Assembly: GCA_003132865.1 (NCBI GenBank)
Contig: PKYZ01000354.1
Coordinates: forward strand, 1 to 14,805
Length of the DNA stretch: 14,805 bases
Direction: 5' to 3'
Source: Bryobacterales bacterium
GTDB taxonomy: Bacteria > Acidobacteriota > Terriglobia > Bryobacterales > Bryobacteraceae
Shown: piece after piece, positions 2,734-10,323 of the stretch
Layout: every line of letters starts with the position of its first letter
Numbering within the stretch: position 1 is the first letter of the stretch
Position numbers and translations under genes: made by a program
Notes under the pieces: model-generated
Databases searched by the model: none
Told to the model about the DNA's origin: nothing
What the model saw: the letters and a program-made list of their open reading frames with translations, nothing else

Positions 2734-2754
2734 CTCTGTTCCGAATTCAGAACA
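2734..2754. promoter_or_regulatory. Palindromic operator-like motif, copy 1
   Basis: TGTTCCGAATTCAGAACA (2737-2754) is a palindrome with one mismatched pair; its arms are TGTTC and GAACA. With the three preceding bases (CTC) it matches a second site at 4255-4275 at 17 of 21 positions. It lies between divergent ubiX and the XRE regulator gene, 23 bases from the ubiX start, so it could control either. Binding by the adjacent regulator is inference. It superficially resembles GAAC/GTTC LexA-type sites, but spacing and ownership are unknown. Confidence 0.45.
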
Positions 2755-2914: not shown

Positions 2915-3697
2915 ATGGAGAACGCCGGACAGAGGCTCAAGCGGGCGCGCGAGCGGCTCAACCTGCGCTATCGCGATGTGGAACAAGCCAGCCTCCGGAT
3001 CGCCGAGCTGCGCCAGAACGACGAGTTTCTCATCGCGCTCAGCCGCCTATCCGATATTGAGAACAAAGGCACCGTTCCCACCATCTACCGCCTGTATTCG
3101 CTGTGCGCCATTTACCGGCTGGACATGGCGGAGGTTCTGGAGTGGTACGGAGTGGATCTGGCGGTGCTGCCCGCGGACGCCGCCGCCCTCCCGCTGGAGA
3201 GCACGCACCTGCTCGGTTTTGGGCCCGGCATACACGGCGAGGTTCAGGTGCCTCTGGCGATCGACCCGGGGGTAGATCTAAGCAAAACCACCTATTTGAG
3301 CCGCGCCATCCGCCGTTGGGGCAAACTCCCGCTCTCCTTGTTGAATGCGGTGGATCTGAAGCATCATCGCTATGCGTTCGTCGGCACGGAGGATTGGTCC
3401 ATGTACCCGATCCTGCAACCGGGCGCTCTGGTACTGATCGATGAGAGCCGTCGCAAGATCGTCAACGCCGGCTGGAACAACGAGTTCGAGCGCCCCATCT
3501 ACTTTCTGGAGCATCGCGGTGGCTGCGTGGTCGGCTGGTGCACATTGGACGGCAGCCAGTTGGTCTTACAGCCGCATCCGGCCTCGCAATGTTTTCCCGT
3601 GGTCTATGCGTATCCGTCCGAAATCGACGTGATCGGCCAGGTATCCGGCGTCGCTATGATCCTGGATCAGGGGAAGCGCCGCCGTACTCGCGTTTGA
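2915..3697 (+). CDS. XRE-family transcriptional regulator with S24-like C-terminal domain
   Basis: A 260-residue protein. Residues 4-85 form an XRE/Cro-type helix-turn-helix (GQRLKRARERLNLRYRDVEQ, then LSRLSDIENKGTVPTIYRLY). A linker leads to a domain at about 153-250 resembling the S24/LexA-like fold: FVGTEDWSMYPILQPGALVL has the Ser-Met-x-Pro signature with Ser162. I find no lysine between 182 and 253, where the catalytic Lys of self-cleaving repressors should lie, so autocleavage is doubtful and the domain may serve for dimerisation or ligand sensing. No Shine-Dalgarno is obvious before the ATG. The promoter at 2773-2801 probably serves it. The last 44 bases overlap the convergent gene 3654-4112. 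Its targets are unknown; the matching motifs at 2734 and 4255 are candidates. Confidence 0.82.
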   Translation: MENAGQRLKRARERLNLRYRDVEQASLRIAELRQNDEFLIALSRLSDIENKGTVPTIYRLYSLCAIYRLDMAEVLEWYGVDLAVLPADAAALPLESTHLLGFGPGIHGEVQVPLAIDPGVDLSKTTYLSRAIRRWGKLPLSLLNAVDLKHHRYAFVGTEDWSMYPILQPGALVLIDESRRKIVNAGWNNEFERPIYFLEHRGGCVVGWCTLDGSQLVLQPHPASQCFPVVYAYPSEIDVIGQVSGVAMILDQGKRRRTRV

Positions 3698-4112
3698 GCA
3701 GCGCGAGCAGGGTTTCCAGATCCGCTACGAAGAGCCGCCGCTCGACGTCCTGCGCCGTGGACGGCACCCAGCTTTGGTAAGCGGCAGAGGCCGCCCAATC
3801 GGCCAGCATGGCGGCCGGATTCGGGGTTTCGGCCAGATACTCCTGCAGGTCGGCCTTCTGCTGTTCCAGGGTCAGGCATAGCCAATCCTGGAATACCCGC
3901 GCGTGGCTCCGGCGCAGCGTCTCCCCGGCTTCCTCATCGCCGACCATTTGCGCCAGGCCCGGGTGTTCGTATACGCCGTTCGTCGGGTTGCGCAGGGAGG
4001 AGAGATACAGCACCCGGCCGAAGAGGGTCGGGATGCGGGCCAGTGTGTGACGCCAAAGATCGACGACCGGCTCCCTGGACCGCTCGTCTGGGCCGAATTT
4101 TCCAGTACTCAT
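3654..4112 (-). CDS. Hypothetical soluble protein, 152 aa
   Basis: I do not recognise a family. The protein is acidic, helical in appearance and lacks a signal peptide or membrane span. Notable stretches are VVDLWRHTLARIPTLFGRV near the start, DEEAGETLRRSHARVFQDWL in the middle, and a helical end (RRLFVADLETLLALLKREYG). GGTGAG lies six bases before the ATG, and an in-frame TAA about 19 codons upstream fixes this as the only good start. Its 3' end overlaps the regulator gene tail to tail by 44 bases. The ATG overlaps the TGA of a 23-codon ORF (4109-4180) as ATGA. A TATAAT-type -10 (4219-4214 on the minus strand) lies about 100 bases upstream, beside a cluster of inverted GGACT half-sites. Confidence 0.72.
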   Translation of the reverse strand: MSTGKFGPDERSREPVVDLWRHTLARIPTLFGRVLYLSSLRNPTNGVYEHPGLAQMVGDEEAGETLRRSHARVFQDWLCLTLEQQKADLQEYLAETPNPAAMLADWAASAAYQSWVPSTAQDVERRLFVADLETLLALLKREYGGASPDPGS

Positions 4113-4192
4113 AGAAGGCTCACCAAGCTCAGCCTTGCGGCGACCTGCAAAAGCCAGGTTGTAAGCTCCTTAGATTCCATATTGAAAACGGA

Positions 4193-4254: not shown

Positions 4255-4275
4255 CTCTGTTCCGGTTTCGGAAAA
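4255..4275. promoter_or_regulatory. Palindromic operator-like motif, copy 2
   Basis: The segment starts CTCTGTTCCG like copy 1 at 2734 and continues into the inverted repeat TTCCG-GTTT-CGGAA (4260-4273). Seventeen of 21 positions match copy 1. It lies 40 bases upstream of the likely -35 of the secreted-peptide gene. It could bind the regulator encoded at 2915-3697, but this is inference. Confidence 0.4.
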
Positions 4276-4324: not shown

Positions 4325-4357
4325 TAGTTACTCTAGTTAGCAAGGAGAAAATACCCT

Positions 4358-4471
4358 ATGTTTAAAAAAGTTTTGCTGGCGGTAGTGCTGGCACTTTCGT
4401 TCTTCTCGGCGATTGGCATCCAGGCGAGCGCACCACCGCCCGAGTGCCTTCCGTGCCCTTGGGTCAATTAA
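4358..4471 (+). CDS. Small secreted peptide with CxxC motif (37 aa)
   Basis: A short gene with a complete export signal: MFKK, a hydrophobic core (VLLAVVLALSFFSAIG) and a likely signal-peptidase site after IQA (residue 23) or ASA (25). Proline at 26 disfavours the second choice. The mature product would be about 14 residues, SAPPPECLPCPWVN, with Cys30 and Cys33 in a CLPC arrangement that could form a disulfide or bind metal. There is no lipobox. AAGGAG (4342-4347) lies 10 bases before the ATG, and TAA ends the frame. It is followed after 113 bases by the seven-helix membrane protein on the same strand; a small hairpin (GCGGA/TCCGC, 4496-4510) lies between. I do not recognise the peptide. Signalling peptide, envelope micropeptide or metal/thiol peptide are all possible. 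Confidence 0.6.
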   Translation: MFKKVLLAVVLALSFFSAIGIQASAPPPECLPCPWVN

Positions 4472-4584
4472 GGCCACAGTCCGTCGCCCGGTATCGCGGA
4501 GTGAATCCGCAAACGCAGATGCTGGCCCTATTTCATCCGGCGTGTTGATAGAATTGGGTCTCGAGGCGCTGCTCCGGAGTCCCA

Positions 4585-5340
4585 ATGGCCCGCATCCTTG
4601 ATTTGCTCATCGTGGCAGGCACTGCGATATTGGGTGTCCGCCTGTTTGCCGCGGACCTCCATCGCCGATACCGGGTCTTCTTCTTTTACCTGATCTTCGC
4701 TACGTTGCGCGCTGGGGTTCTCGCCAGTCTTGGACACAAGAGCGACGCCTACCAGTATGTCTGGGTGCTGACGGAGCCCCTTGAATGGCTCTTTTATGTC
4801 TTGGTGGTTCTAGAGATTTATGCCTTAGTCCTGCAGGACTATCGGGGCTTGGCTACGGTTGGCCGCTGGGCTCTGATCGCGGCGGTTGTGGTGGCATTGT
4901 TGGCCTCCGGCGTCAGCTTGATGGCGCCGTCCCAATCTCCGCAGAGCCATTTGATGCGTTATTACTACGTGGCTGAGCGGGCAATGTACTTTAGCCTGGC
5001 TGTCTTCCTGCTTTCGATTTTGGGTTTCCTGATGCAATACCCTATCACTCTGAGCCGCAACATCATCGTCCACAGTATGGTTTTCTCCGTTTATTTTCTT
5101 GGCAATACGGTTCTCTACCTATTGCTCAGCATGCGCGGATACGGGTCCATCCCCGTGGTCAGGTATGCGCTCTCCGCTATAACCTTAGCGGCGGTTGGCA
5201 CTTGGCTGGTGATGTTGAATCCGGCCGGAGAAGTCCGCAAGCTGAGGCTGCGCCCCCACTGGATGCCGGGCCGGGAAGAGGAACTCGTCATCCAGTTGAA
5301 CAATCTCAACGCCGCGCTCCTCCGCGCTACTCGAAAATAG
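4585..5340 (+). CDS. Seven-helix integral membrane protein, unknown function
   Basis: A 251-residue protein with seven clear hydrophobic segments, about 5-22, 30-47, 64-82, 92-111, 130-152, 162-180 and 190-208. A basic tail of about 40 residues follows and ends in an amphipathic helix (EEELVIQLNNLNAALLRATR). The topology resembles seven-helix sensory or carrier proteins, and the tail looks like the first turns of a signalling helix, but there is no attached enzyme domain. CGGAG (4575-4579) lies five bases before the ATG. It follows the secreted-peptide gene and precedes the anchored protein at 5406 by 65 bases, all on one strand, so co-expression is likely. A role as membrane receptor or partner of the peptide is speculation. 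I recognise no named family. Confidence 0.8.
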   Translation: MARILDLLIVAGTAILGVRLFAADLHRRYRVFFFYLIFATLRAGVLASLGHKSDAYQYVWVLTEPLEWLFYVLVVLEIYALVLQDYRGLATVGRWALIAAVVVALLASGVSLMAPSQSPQSHLMRYYYVAERAMYFSLAVFLLSILGFLMQYPITLSRNIIVHSMVFSVYFLGNTVLYLLLSMRGYGSIPVVRYALSAITLAAVGTWLVMLNPAGEVRKLRLRPHWMPGREEELVIQLNNLNAALLRATRK

Positions 5341-5405
5341 ATCAAAGTAACCATTGCTTTTCCGTGCCAGACAGGGTATTCTCATCGTGGGGAAGAAAGG
5401 AGATC

Positions 5406-5939
5406 ATGGATCTCATCCTTTGCCTAGCCGCGTTCGTTTGCCTGGCAGTCGGAGCGGTTTTGGCTTTTCTATTTCGGAGGCTGATAGCGGGACCCAAGTC
5501 GCTGCCGGTGTCCGTGGATTGGATTAACGACCTTTCCGTGGCGCGATACCGGCCGATGGAGAGGTTGCTGAGCGAAGAGGATTACCGCTTTTTGGCCAGC
5601 CAGCCCGGCTTCGACAAGAGGATGCTGCGACGCATCCGGTCGGAGCGCCGGAGGGTGTTCCGGGGTTATCTGGCTTGTTTAAGCCGCGATTTCAGCTTGG
5701 TCGGTGCCGCCTTGCGGCTGATGATGATGTATTCCGCGCAGGACCGTCCGGATCTGGCGGGAATCCTCTATAAGCAGCAGGCGTTGTTTGCTTTCGGGAT
5801 GCTGGCCGTACAATGGCGTCTGGTTCTGCACGCTTGCGGTTTGGGAACGGTGGATGTTCGTGGCTTGGTCCGCGCCATGGAGTCCATGCGCCTGGAGTTG
5901 CGGCAAATGATTCCCGCTGAAGGCGCGGCCGTCGCTTAA
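5406..5939 (+). CDS. Membrane-anchored hypothetical protein, 177 aa
   Basis: One N-terminal membrane helix (LILCLAAFVCLAVGAVLAFL, about 3-22) is followed by RRL and a cytoplasmic, helical, Arg-rich domain. The domain has an acidic/aromatic segment (MERLLSEEDYRFLASQPGF), a strongly basic stretch (RMLRRIRSERRRVFRGY) and a C-terminal helical bundle. The frame is open from 5202, but the ATG at 5406 is chosen because AAAGGAG (5396-5402) lies just upstream and the earlier part runs antiparallel through the preceding gene in another frame. The spacing (three bases) is short. It probably belongs to the same transcript as the seven-helix protein and could be its cytoplasmic effector, but no family is recognised. 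Confidence 0.75.
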   Translation: MDLILCLAAFVCLAVGAVLAFLFRRLIAGPKSLPVSVDWINDLSVARYRPMERLLSEEDYRFLASQPGFDKRMLRRIRSERRRVFRGYLACLSRDFSLVGAALRLMMMYSAQDRPDLAGILYKQQALFAFGMLAVQWRLVLHACGLGTVDVRGLVRAMESMRLELRQMIPAEGAAVA

Positions 5940-8362: not shown

Positions 8363-9343
8363 TTACGGCACCGGCCAGTATCCCGCTCTGGTCCGCACTA
8401 CCAGGTCGGAACGATTCCGCACCGTCACGCGGATCTGATGGAACTCCTCCGGATCCGAATGCGGCGGGGTGAAGCTGATCAGATACTGATTGTGGATCTC
8501 CGCGCCAAGACTCTCAATCACTTCTTCCAGCCCTTTCTGCTTTAGAAACGAAACCCGCCGCCCGCCCGTATACTTGGCGAAAGCCTCCGCGATATTGGTC
8601 TTGGCGAGCTCCTGCATCTGGCCGAGCATGGCAAGCAGATCCTTCGCATCGCCCCATTCCGGATCGCGTGGCTTGCAGTTCTCGTGGTGCGCGTCGCACA
8701 CTGGCCCCCAGTCCGTCGAAGTGAACGGCGTCAGAAACCGCGAGTAAGTGATGAAGTAGACCGTCACATTCTCCCGCTGCGCGCGCGAGATGGCTTGTGC
8801 GAGCGGCATCTTGCTGCCGCGGTCCTTGCTCTCGCCGATGACAAACACTATCTTGCGGCTGTCTTTCCGCGCAGCTAGGAGATCGACGGCCTTAGCCACC
8901 GCCTCGATGGCGCTGCCACCGGAACCATGCGCCCGCACGTGCCGAAAAACTCCCTCTAGCGTCCCTGTATCCGAAGTGAAATCCTGCGCCAAAGTCACCT
9001 CCTGGCCATACCAGATCACCGCGGCCTCGCCGCGCTCGCCCGCCACCAGCGGTTCGATCATGCTGCCTATCTTCTTGATCTTGTCCAGGGCGGCCCAGGC
9101 CTCCTGCGTCGAGTTCACGGCGACCACCAGCGAAATCGGCATGGTCAGCTCATCCACCTGGATATTACGCGGCACATTGTTGTCCAAAAGGAGCAGGTCC
9201 GGGGGCGTCAGGCTCCGCACATAGTGGCCGGCCCGGTCGGTGATGGTGGTAGGGGCAACTACCAGCGGGACCGTAGTTTTGAGCGTGGTTTCTTGCGCCG
9301 GCATGAGCCATGCCATCGCGCACAGCAAGCCAGCGGGGCGCAT
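8363..9343 (-). CDS. Secreted VWFA-related protein of the acidobacterial type
   Basis: A 326-residue protein matching the VWFA-related family described from Acidobacteria (I recognise the TIGR03436 style). A short N-terminal export signal (AGLLCAMAWLMPAQ) is followed by the family's opening (TTVPLVVAPTTITDRAGHYV, then LTPPDLLLLDN), a VWA-like Rossmann domain at about 68-285 (PISLVVAVNST; RKIVFVIGESKDRGS; ENVTVYFITYSRFL), and the usual close (YLISFTPP; VRTRAGYWP). The metal-site DxSxS is absent: the aligned residues are A75-V-N77-S-T79. An insert with two cysteines (Cys216, Cys223) lies around 208-230. The family is usually exported; its role is unknown. Start choice is uncertain because no Shine-Dalgarno is visible; Met10 or Met14 are alternatives. 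Confidence 0.88.
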   Translation of the reverse strand: MRPAGLLCAMAWLMPAQETTLKTTVPLVVAPTTITDRAGHYVRSLTPPDLLLLDNNVPRNIQVDELTMPISLVVAVNSTQEAWAALDKIKKIGSMIEPLVAGERGEAAVIWYGQEVTLAQDFTSDTGTLEGVFRHVRAHGSGGSAIEAVAKAVDLLAARKDSRKIVFVIGESKDRGSKMPLAQAISRAQRENVTVYFITYSRFLTPFTSTDWGPVCDAHHENCKPRDPEWGDAKDLLAMLGQMQELAKTNIAEAFAKYTGGRRVSFLKQKGLEEVIESLGAEIHNQYLISFTPPHSDPEEFHQIRVTVRNRSDLVVRTRAGYWPVP

Positions 9344-9543: not shown

Positions 9544-10323
9544 ATGAGTTACAAGGGCCTGACATGCCTGTTCCGCGTTTCTCTCCCCCTCCTTTCAGCG
9601 ATGCTAGTCGCGCAAACCGCGGGGCAAACCCTTAAAATCCAAGATGCGACGGCTGTTCGCCTATCGCTTACGGAATCCCTCAGCTCGGCTACGAATAGTG
9701 TCGATGATCCGGTTCGTTTCGAAGTGACGGAAGATGTAAAGGTGGGCGATCTCATCGCTATCCCCAGAGGTTCAACTGCCGTGGGCCACGTGGTAGAAGT
9801 CGAACCAAAGCGGCGCCTGGGCCGTGCCGGCAAATTGAACTTCTCCATCGATCATGTAAAGGCTCCCGACGGCGCCAATGTCCGCCTGAGGGCCTCATCC
9901 GCGAGGAAGGGAGAGGACAAGACTGGCACCGTTATTGTCGGGACTGTCTTGTTGTCGCCGCTTTTCTTGATCATGCGCGGCAAGGATGTGAGTATCCTAA
10001 AGGGTACTAACGTTATCGCATACGTAGACGGCGATCGGGAGATCGCCTTGCCGGGTACTCTCGCTATCGGTACCACGGCTGCGGGGAGCGCCCAAGCTGG
10101 CCCGGGCGTTCAGACGGCTGCCGTGTCGTTCACCTCGACTCCGGACGGCGCCGACGTTATCATTGATGGCAAGTACGCGGCAAGCACGCCATCAACACTC
10201 CAGTTGGCGGCCGGTGACCACAAGGTTTCCATAGAGAAGGGTGAGTTCAAGATCTGGCAGCGGACGATCACAGTTACCGTTGGCAGCAGCATCACGATGA
10301 GCGCAACGCTGGAAAAACAATAG
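9544..10323 (+). CDS. Exported PEGA-domain protein
   Basis: A 259-residue protein. A signal peptide covers about 1-28 (LFRVSLPLLSAMLVAQTAGQ). Residues 30-170 form a beta-rich domain (RFEVTEDVKVGDLIAIPRGS; VRLRASSARKGEDKTG) with one short hydrophobic segment (TVIVGTVLLSPLFLIM, 129-144). A PEGA domain occupies about 194-258: SFTSTPDGADVIIDGKYA, then GDHKVSIEKGEF, where the usual P-x-G-A is PDGA (200-203). PEGA modules are small beta domains found in envelope and surface proteins. AAGGAG lies about 10 bases before the ATG. The N-terminal region looks like a surface or periplasmic module; the ligand is unknown. The gene has its own promoter and a 97-base gap to the next gene. Confidence 0.82.
   Translation: MSYKGLTCLFRVSLPLLSAMLVAQTAGQTLKIQDATAVRLSLTESLSSATNSVDDPVRFEVTEDVKVGDLIAIPRGSTAVGHVVEVEPKRRLGRAGKLNFSIDHVKAPDGANVRLRASSARKGEDKTGTVIVGTVLLSPLFLIMRGKDVSILKGTNVIAYVDGDREIALPGTLAIGTTAAGSAQAGPGVQTAAVSFTSTPDGADVIIDGKYAASTPSTLQLAAGDHKVSIEKGEFKIWQRTITVTVGSSITMSATLEKQ

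Follow-up and report, generated by a model that had tools for sequence, protein, structure and literature searches.

A conserved gene cluster of soil Acidobacteria with the appearance of a hitherto undescribed peptide signalling system

Signalling by peptides has been described at length in Gram-positive bacteria, and Acidobacteria are abundant in soil. The locus described here raises the question of what a peptide gene of 37 codons, short enough for gene callers to skip, could be doing in an acidobacterium next to a seven-helix membrane protein and a membrane-anchored partner. It lies in a stretch of 14,805 nt from a Bryobacterales genome (contig PKYZ01000354.1), which we refer to as the window. 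The original prediction, made from the letters of the window, had proposed that the three genes have the layout of a secreted peptide, a receptor and an effector. A search of the open-access literature turned up no account of a locus of this kind in Acidobacteria.

Layout and conservation of the locus

The genes and sites of the window on which the argument turns are the following.

2738..2753: putative operator, a GTTCYR-N4-YRGAA palindrome ahead of the regulator gene
2915..3697, plus strand: XRE-like regulator (helix-turn-helix, HTH), its C-terminal part weakly S24-like, assigned from Pfam HTH rows below the cut-off and from synteny
3654..4112, minus strand: REV152, a 152-aa protein of no known family (sub-threshold rows only), its gene overlapping that of the regulator tail-to-tail
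4259..4273: palindrome before the peptide gene, in the region divergent to REV152, putative operator
4342..4347, plus strand: AAGGAG, the Shine–Dalgarno-like sequence of the peptide gene, with similar sequences before most relatives
4358..4471, plus strand: micropeptide precursor of 37 aa with an ATG start; predicted signal-like part at approximately residues 1–23 and mature part at approximately 24–37
4585..5340, plus strand: TM7, a seven-helix membrane protein of 251 aa, proposed receptor
5406..5939, plus strand: PART, a single-span protein of 177 aa with a helical cytoplasmic domain, proposed effector
downstream, minus strand: SprT-like gene, its Pfam match just under the cut-off
downstream, plus strand: gene for beta-ketoacyl-ACP synthase III (FabH)

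In none of the libraries searched did the peptide, TM7, PART or REV152 have a match that passed the cut-off. In Pfam, at E <= 1, there were no rows for the peptide and PART, and those for TM7, REV152 and the regulator all fell below the cut-off, which agrees with the original view, in which none of the three proposed components was recognised as a named family. NCBIfam had no matches for TM7, PART or REV152, five proteins of the window matched no family of the PADLOC anti-phage defence models at E <= 0.1, PHROGs returned weak rows only, for the regulator and REV152, and none of four alignments used as profiles against the PDB reached significance (best E 0.077). Outside the described locus, further downstream, lie a protein that matches VWA weakly (8363–9343, minus strand) and a PEGA-domain protein (9544–10323, plus strand).

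Protein searches returned 254 relatives of TM7 and 303 of PART; among the 120 listed of each, those named by organism were Bryobacteraceae, and relatives of the two proteins carry neighbouring locus tags (e.g. VN924_10490/10485). The search at genus level covered G001 as its sole genome, where a TM7 profile scan of contigs found one partial locus that gave entry to the genomes of its family, the first family below. A set of 80 regions was mapped together with the window, 60 of them picked by TM7 down the score list, and the usual order is HTH (plus), REV152 (minus), one or more peptides (plus), TM7 (plus) and PART (plus), often followed by the SprT-like gene (minus) and FabH (plus). The regulator is upstream in 48 of the 60 TM7-chosen loci, and all 48 have the peptide, so that the 37-codon ORF with its signal-like sequence does recur upstream of TM7 homologues as a conserved peptide; PART follows TM7 in 45 of them. 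Profile matches account for 43 of the 48 peptides, a count that is not independent because some of these genomes had contributed to the profile, and the other five were found by eye (L124, L127, L137, L138 and L143) as signal-like ORFs with a Pro/Cys tail at the same place, that of L127 having no clear Shine–Dalgarno sequence.

The original prediction also asked whether the peptide tail always stands beside the membrane pair, which it does not. Among the 12 TM7 loci without a regulator, some of which are second copies (as in G021), a peptide is present in three, where TM7 lies near a contig end, and nine have no peptide match. Five other loci (L066, L067, L070, L073 and L081) carry a peptide after HTH and REV152, with no TM7 match for at least 5 kb downstream. 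Because the peptide is present without TM7, and TM7 loci without the regulator are mostly peptide-free, the peptide of the first family is tied more strictly to HTH and REV152 than to TM7. The regulator (2915–3697) and REV152 (3654–4112) are thus its tighter partners; like the palindrome and the multi-copy nature of the peptide, they had no place in the original prediction. Elsewhere in the class, L176–L182 have HTH and REV152 but neither a peptide nor a TM7 match was seen there, and of 250 genomes sampled across the class 124 encode REV152. In a tree, the TM7 copies of the first family that have a peptide do not separate from those that have none. The G001 genome also holds a second TM7 copy, which consists of two overlapping pieces in different frames (contig C113, 47878–48626; L003, L005).

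The peptides and their palindromes in two families

The window peptide, encoded by 4358–4471 on the plus strand, is MFKKVLLAVVLALSFFSAIGIQASAPPPECLPCPWVN. Like its relatives it has a basic start, a hydrophobic stretch and an AxA-like end, followed by a tail of which DLPWPTCGPCPIEKVAK is a usual example among relatives. The PxPxCxPC tail was found in 92 of 101 extracted copies, a few of which are cut at contig ends or have no clear start, and both Cys residues of CxPC are invariant in the first family (17-row and 45-row alignments). Judged by its sequence, the peptide is a member of a conserved family of putatively secreted micropeptides, composed of a signal-like sequence and this tail. Since Pro is disfavoured at position +1 of a signal cleavage site, predicted cleavage of the window peptide after IQA is likelier than after ASA. 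A profile built from 17 peptides gave strong matches in many of the 200 genomes drawn from the first family, often in tandem at a spacing of about 150 nt; at E <= 10 some row appears in 199 of 200 genomes, a cut-off at which the genome count gives no prevalence. In the first family the genes are in tandem, with one to five copies per locus, and in L124, L127 and L134 a single precursor with two, five and three core repeats, respectively, takes the place of tandem genes. The mature parts are rich in Pro and range from neutral to acidic. A promoter-like TTGA-TAGAAT before the window TM7 is not conserved (2 of 70 loci).

Selection was assessed among the copies within 16 tandem arrays, after dropping those without a usable start or stop; L084 and L085 belong to one genome, the pairs of array copies are non-independent, and the last residue, absent from one copy in L080, plays no part in the codon counts. 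Overall, the mature part has a pS of 0.328 and a pN of 0.023, and the signal part a pS of 0.348 and a pN of 0.096. There are no non-synonymous differences in the mature part in 14 of the 16 arrays, which sum to 146 synonymous differences over pairs (the L084 array has neither kind), and the 50 non-synonymous differences are confined to L069 (8) and L078 (42). Over 79 similar-copy pairs, within and between loci, pN/pS is 0.25 for the mature part and 0.32 for the signal. These comparisons confirm that the peptide codons are under purifying selection. The window peptide and the nearest relative compared, that of G001, are separated by 8 non-synonymous and 11 synonymous codon changes, with no indel and the core intact, and the mature part differs between genomes. 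A mature product that is the same within most genomes and divergent between them is as expected of a ligand. For the repeats within 17 precursors of both families, pS is 0.55 and pN 0.013 (L193 having no synonymous differences); here the low pN is by construction, because the repeats were picked by amino-acid pattern, and only the high synonymous rate is informative.

REV152 is present in 77 of 89 genomes of the family of G356, the second family of the class to be considered. Across 30 loci, TM7 is on the peptide strand in 17, on the opposite strand in 11 and out of range in 2, and the two kinds of TM7 form separate groups in the tree (100/99 each). A signal-led precursor with one to four near-identical Pro-rich units, located between REV152 and TM7, was found in 16 of the 17 co-directional loci, in none of the 11 with TM7 on the opposite strand and in neither of the 2 without TM7; in L202 there is a co-directional TM7 and a palindrome, yet the peptide was not found. 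Examples of the units are four copies of SGSPLPLPTPP (L223) and three of DGWPLPPPIPP (L195), and they have no Cys, although the locus is the same. Eight loci (L185, L186, L187, L190 and L196–L199) represent a second kind of HTH–REV152 locus, in which TM7 is on the opposite strand and neither a peptide nor an exact palindrome was seen; on the strand of TM7, three of them (L186, L187 and L190) show another short ORF with a hydrophobic start, resembling MEARIFLQYAQLR or MTEARIFLQYAQLR. Pro-rich ORFs without repeats on the other strand in this family (L196, L209, L218 and L219) were taken as chance.

In both families the palindrome GTTCYR-N4-YRGAA is found between REV152 and the peptide. The two sites of the window, at 2738 and 4259, amount to three strand matches where 0.08 are expected, and none of 200 shuffles reached three. 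In the first family the regulator has a palindrome no more than 400 bp away in 61 of 67 loci (median distance 131 bp), and the gap between REV152 and the peptide holds an exact one in 26 of 56 loci, at a median of 109 bp (IQR 107–112) before the first peptide; with up to one mismatch the figure is 52 of 56, a relaxed count without a shuffle control. In the second family the exact palindrome follows the orientation of TM7 (13 of 17 co-directional loci, 0 of 11 opposite-strand and 0 of 2 without TM7), and there was none before the regulator within the stretch examined. Almost every exact site in 794 kb of locus sequence is before a regulator or a peptide, with 3.6 in total expected under shuffling. 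Positions of this kind point to the regulator as the probable binder of the palindromes, both at its own gene and at the peptide gene.

Covariation with the peptide was weak for TM7, and no stronger than for the SprT-like neighbour (29 loci): raw r was 0.57 for TM7 and 0.65 for the flanking SprT-like gene, and in partial Mantel tests over the 29 loci PART reached 0.23–0.28 and TM7 0.10–0.20, with none for the regulator and REV152. As the SprT-like neighbour correlates as strongly as any (partial 0.42 with FabH held), covariation is no main argument here.

A candidate ligand–receptor module and its alternatives

The AlphaFold2 model of TM7 (pLDDT 82.9, pTM 0.76) has helices at 2–22, 30–48, 54–82, 87–111, 122–151 and 158–210 and a C-terminal helix at 231–250; the helix at 158–210 is long enough for two spans and is read as TM6 and TM7, which gives what looks, in the model, like a rhodopsin/GPCR-like arrangement of seven helices. 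Foldseek returned no match to it at E <= 0.001; its top rows were microbial rhodopsins, with the Ste2 structure 7ad3 also among the fold rows, at a fold Z that helical bundles can reach by chance. There was no PDB sequence match of note for TM7. The PART model (pLDDT 79.8) has one hydrophobic helix at 2–27 and a helical domain, for which Foldseek gave nothing useful, and the two models together support the early description of a seven-helix protein and a single-span partner on the same strand. Among TM7 relatives the outer half is more variable than the inner half (2.44 against 1.82, p 8e-9).

Multiplied, putatively secreted peptides that are identical in their mature parts and specific to a genome, encoded next to a fast-diverging TM7 and under an apparently autoregulated switch, make a ligand–receptor module the best explanation, and we give a probability of a little under 0.6 to the locus being a peptide-signalling module with a secreted ligand, an autoregulated switch and sensing by TM7 and PART. 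Against it stand the peptides that have no TM7 nearby, the mixing of peptide-bearing and peptide-free copies among first-family TM7 proteins, the weak covariation, the peptide-free L202, the HTH–REV152 loci L176–L182, the finding of no exact palindrome before second-family regulators within the stretch examined, and the Foldseek outcome. With the peptide conserved and its codons under selection, the proposed arrangement of a peptide with a membrane protein and an anchored partner is real, and ligand binding and signalling would be its putative functions. In such a module the signal sequence would export the precursor, which would be trimmed to a mature peptide of about 12–20 residues that may act between cells or only in the periplasm; the XRE-like regulator, acting on the palindromes of its own gene and of the region divergent between the peptide and REV152, would set peptide output; TM7 would recognise the mature peptide from outside, and its inner face, which is conserved, and its helical tail may carry its state on to the anchored PART. 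The anatomy underlying this scheme can be read from the DNA (the conserved locus, the peptide family, selection on the mature part, multiplication, the palindromes and, as a prediction, the fold); we infer export, cleavage, regulator binding, ligand contact and the roles of PART and REV152. Should the scheme be true, the ligand of any one genome could be deduced from its DNA and synthesised, at about 14 residues, for testing; peptide sensing through a seven-helix receptor that is not a kinase would be new for bacteria.

Instead of a free signal, the peptide could be a periplasmic component that serves TM7 and PART as a small subunit, a chaperone or a reporter of their state, made at high dose and kept near the membrane. 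This would suit the shared locus, the finding of no outer-membrane exporter among its mapped genes, and the occurrence of the second-family peptide only with a co-directional TM7; however, mature parts that are identical within a genome and divergent between genomes suit a ligand better, and there are peptide arrays without a nearby TM7, so that we regard it as unlikely. A secreted bacteriocin-like antagonist, for which TM7 and PART would provide immunity, seems to us slightly less likely again. Multi-copy short secreted peptides do adjoin a fast-diverging membrane protein (mean TM7 p-distance 0.67), but a TM7 relative is present in 149 of 200 genomes drawn from the first family, widespread at one syntenic place and not patchy, the mature parts are neutral to acidic, unlike Pro-rich antimicrobial peptides, which are cationic, and PADLOC gave no match.

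The retention of both Cys residues in the first family would fit a metal- or redox-responsive periplasmic peptide acting through the CxPC pair, a proposal made improbable by the Cys-free repeat units at the same locus in the second family. We consider it very improbable that the peptide is a translated leader or arrest peptide controlling TM7 expression in cis: a short ORF with a Pro-rich conserved end does stand right before a membrane-protein gene, but there are up to five tandem copies, repeats within precursors and loci with no downstream TM7, and the spacing from peptide to TM7 runs from 79 to 329 nt (L073 left out).

Returning to the ligand–receptor module, a more far-reaching formulation is offered only tentatively, namely that a hormone-like system of diderm bacteria exists in no fewer than two families of a single acidobacterial class, with a genome-specific ligand cut from tandem or repeat precursors, a non-kinase rhodopsin/GPCR-like receptor, an anchored partner and an autoregulated XRE-like switch, as a bacterial counterpart of the alpha-factor/Ste2 design. 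The likeness to the yeast system lies in a repeat-bearing secreted precursor and a similar predicted helix arrangement; here, in contrast, no sequence kinship was seen, there is no G protein, the regulator is XRE-like, and the fold rows are below the level of kinship. The agr system (AgrD peptide, AgrB peptidase) shares a small precursor beside a multi-span membrane protein, but the window TM7 has no Cys, no AgrB match was among the Pfam rows, and there is no kinase gene in the mapped order. Microbial rhodopsins resemble the modelled seven-helix arrangement and supplied the top Foldseek rows, but the window TM7 has no Lys in its last membrane helix (about 186–210), where retinal would bind.

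Set beside LexA/CI-like XRE-S24 regulators, the regulator of the window has HTH rows below the Pfam cut-off and a weakly S24-like part. HTH_31 was found in 19 of 20 regulators, Peptidase_S24 rows were weak and occurred in 7 of the 20 (best E 0.0017, Pfam), and S162 (EDWSM), which we take to be the S24 catalytic Ser, is not kept, the position being S, T, F, A or L across 20 rows. In the RRNPP/RRNPPA systems of Firmicutes, such as AloR–AloP of Paenibacillus polymyxa, a short signal-led propeptide adjoins a helix-turn-helix regulator, and a TPR receptor domain is the defining feature (PMC7425212, PMC10075063). The likeness is a signal-led propeptide and an HTH regulator in one locus; here, however, REV152 sits between the two on the other strand, a Pfam search of 20 regulators gave no TPR row at E <= 1, the locus includes TM7 and PART, and its precursors come in multiples, either as tandem genes or as repeats.

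Palindromes outside the locus

In 12 whole genomes the palindrome was more frequent than its reversed control in 8, tied in 3 and less frequent in 1. In at least 6 of 16 regions around such sites it precedes a gene for a small RGRPP (AT-hook-like) protein, and the regulon may therefore reach further; on the placement of the sites, the RGRPP gene is likely a second target of the regulator. In six regions (L243, L245, L247, L250, L253 and L256), at about 3.4–5.0 kb in each, the palindrome is single or paired about 83 bp apart, and one small gene that encodes a coiled coil plus RGRPP lies downstream of it, with permease-like neighbours, as judged by eye. In L258, at about 3777–4136, an ORF of near-identical repeats (FAEGNAGAALAGGWSQPALGWWRFSLGLRRA) stands beside a pair of palindromes.
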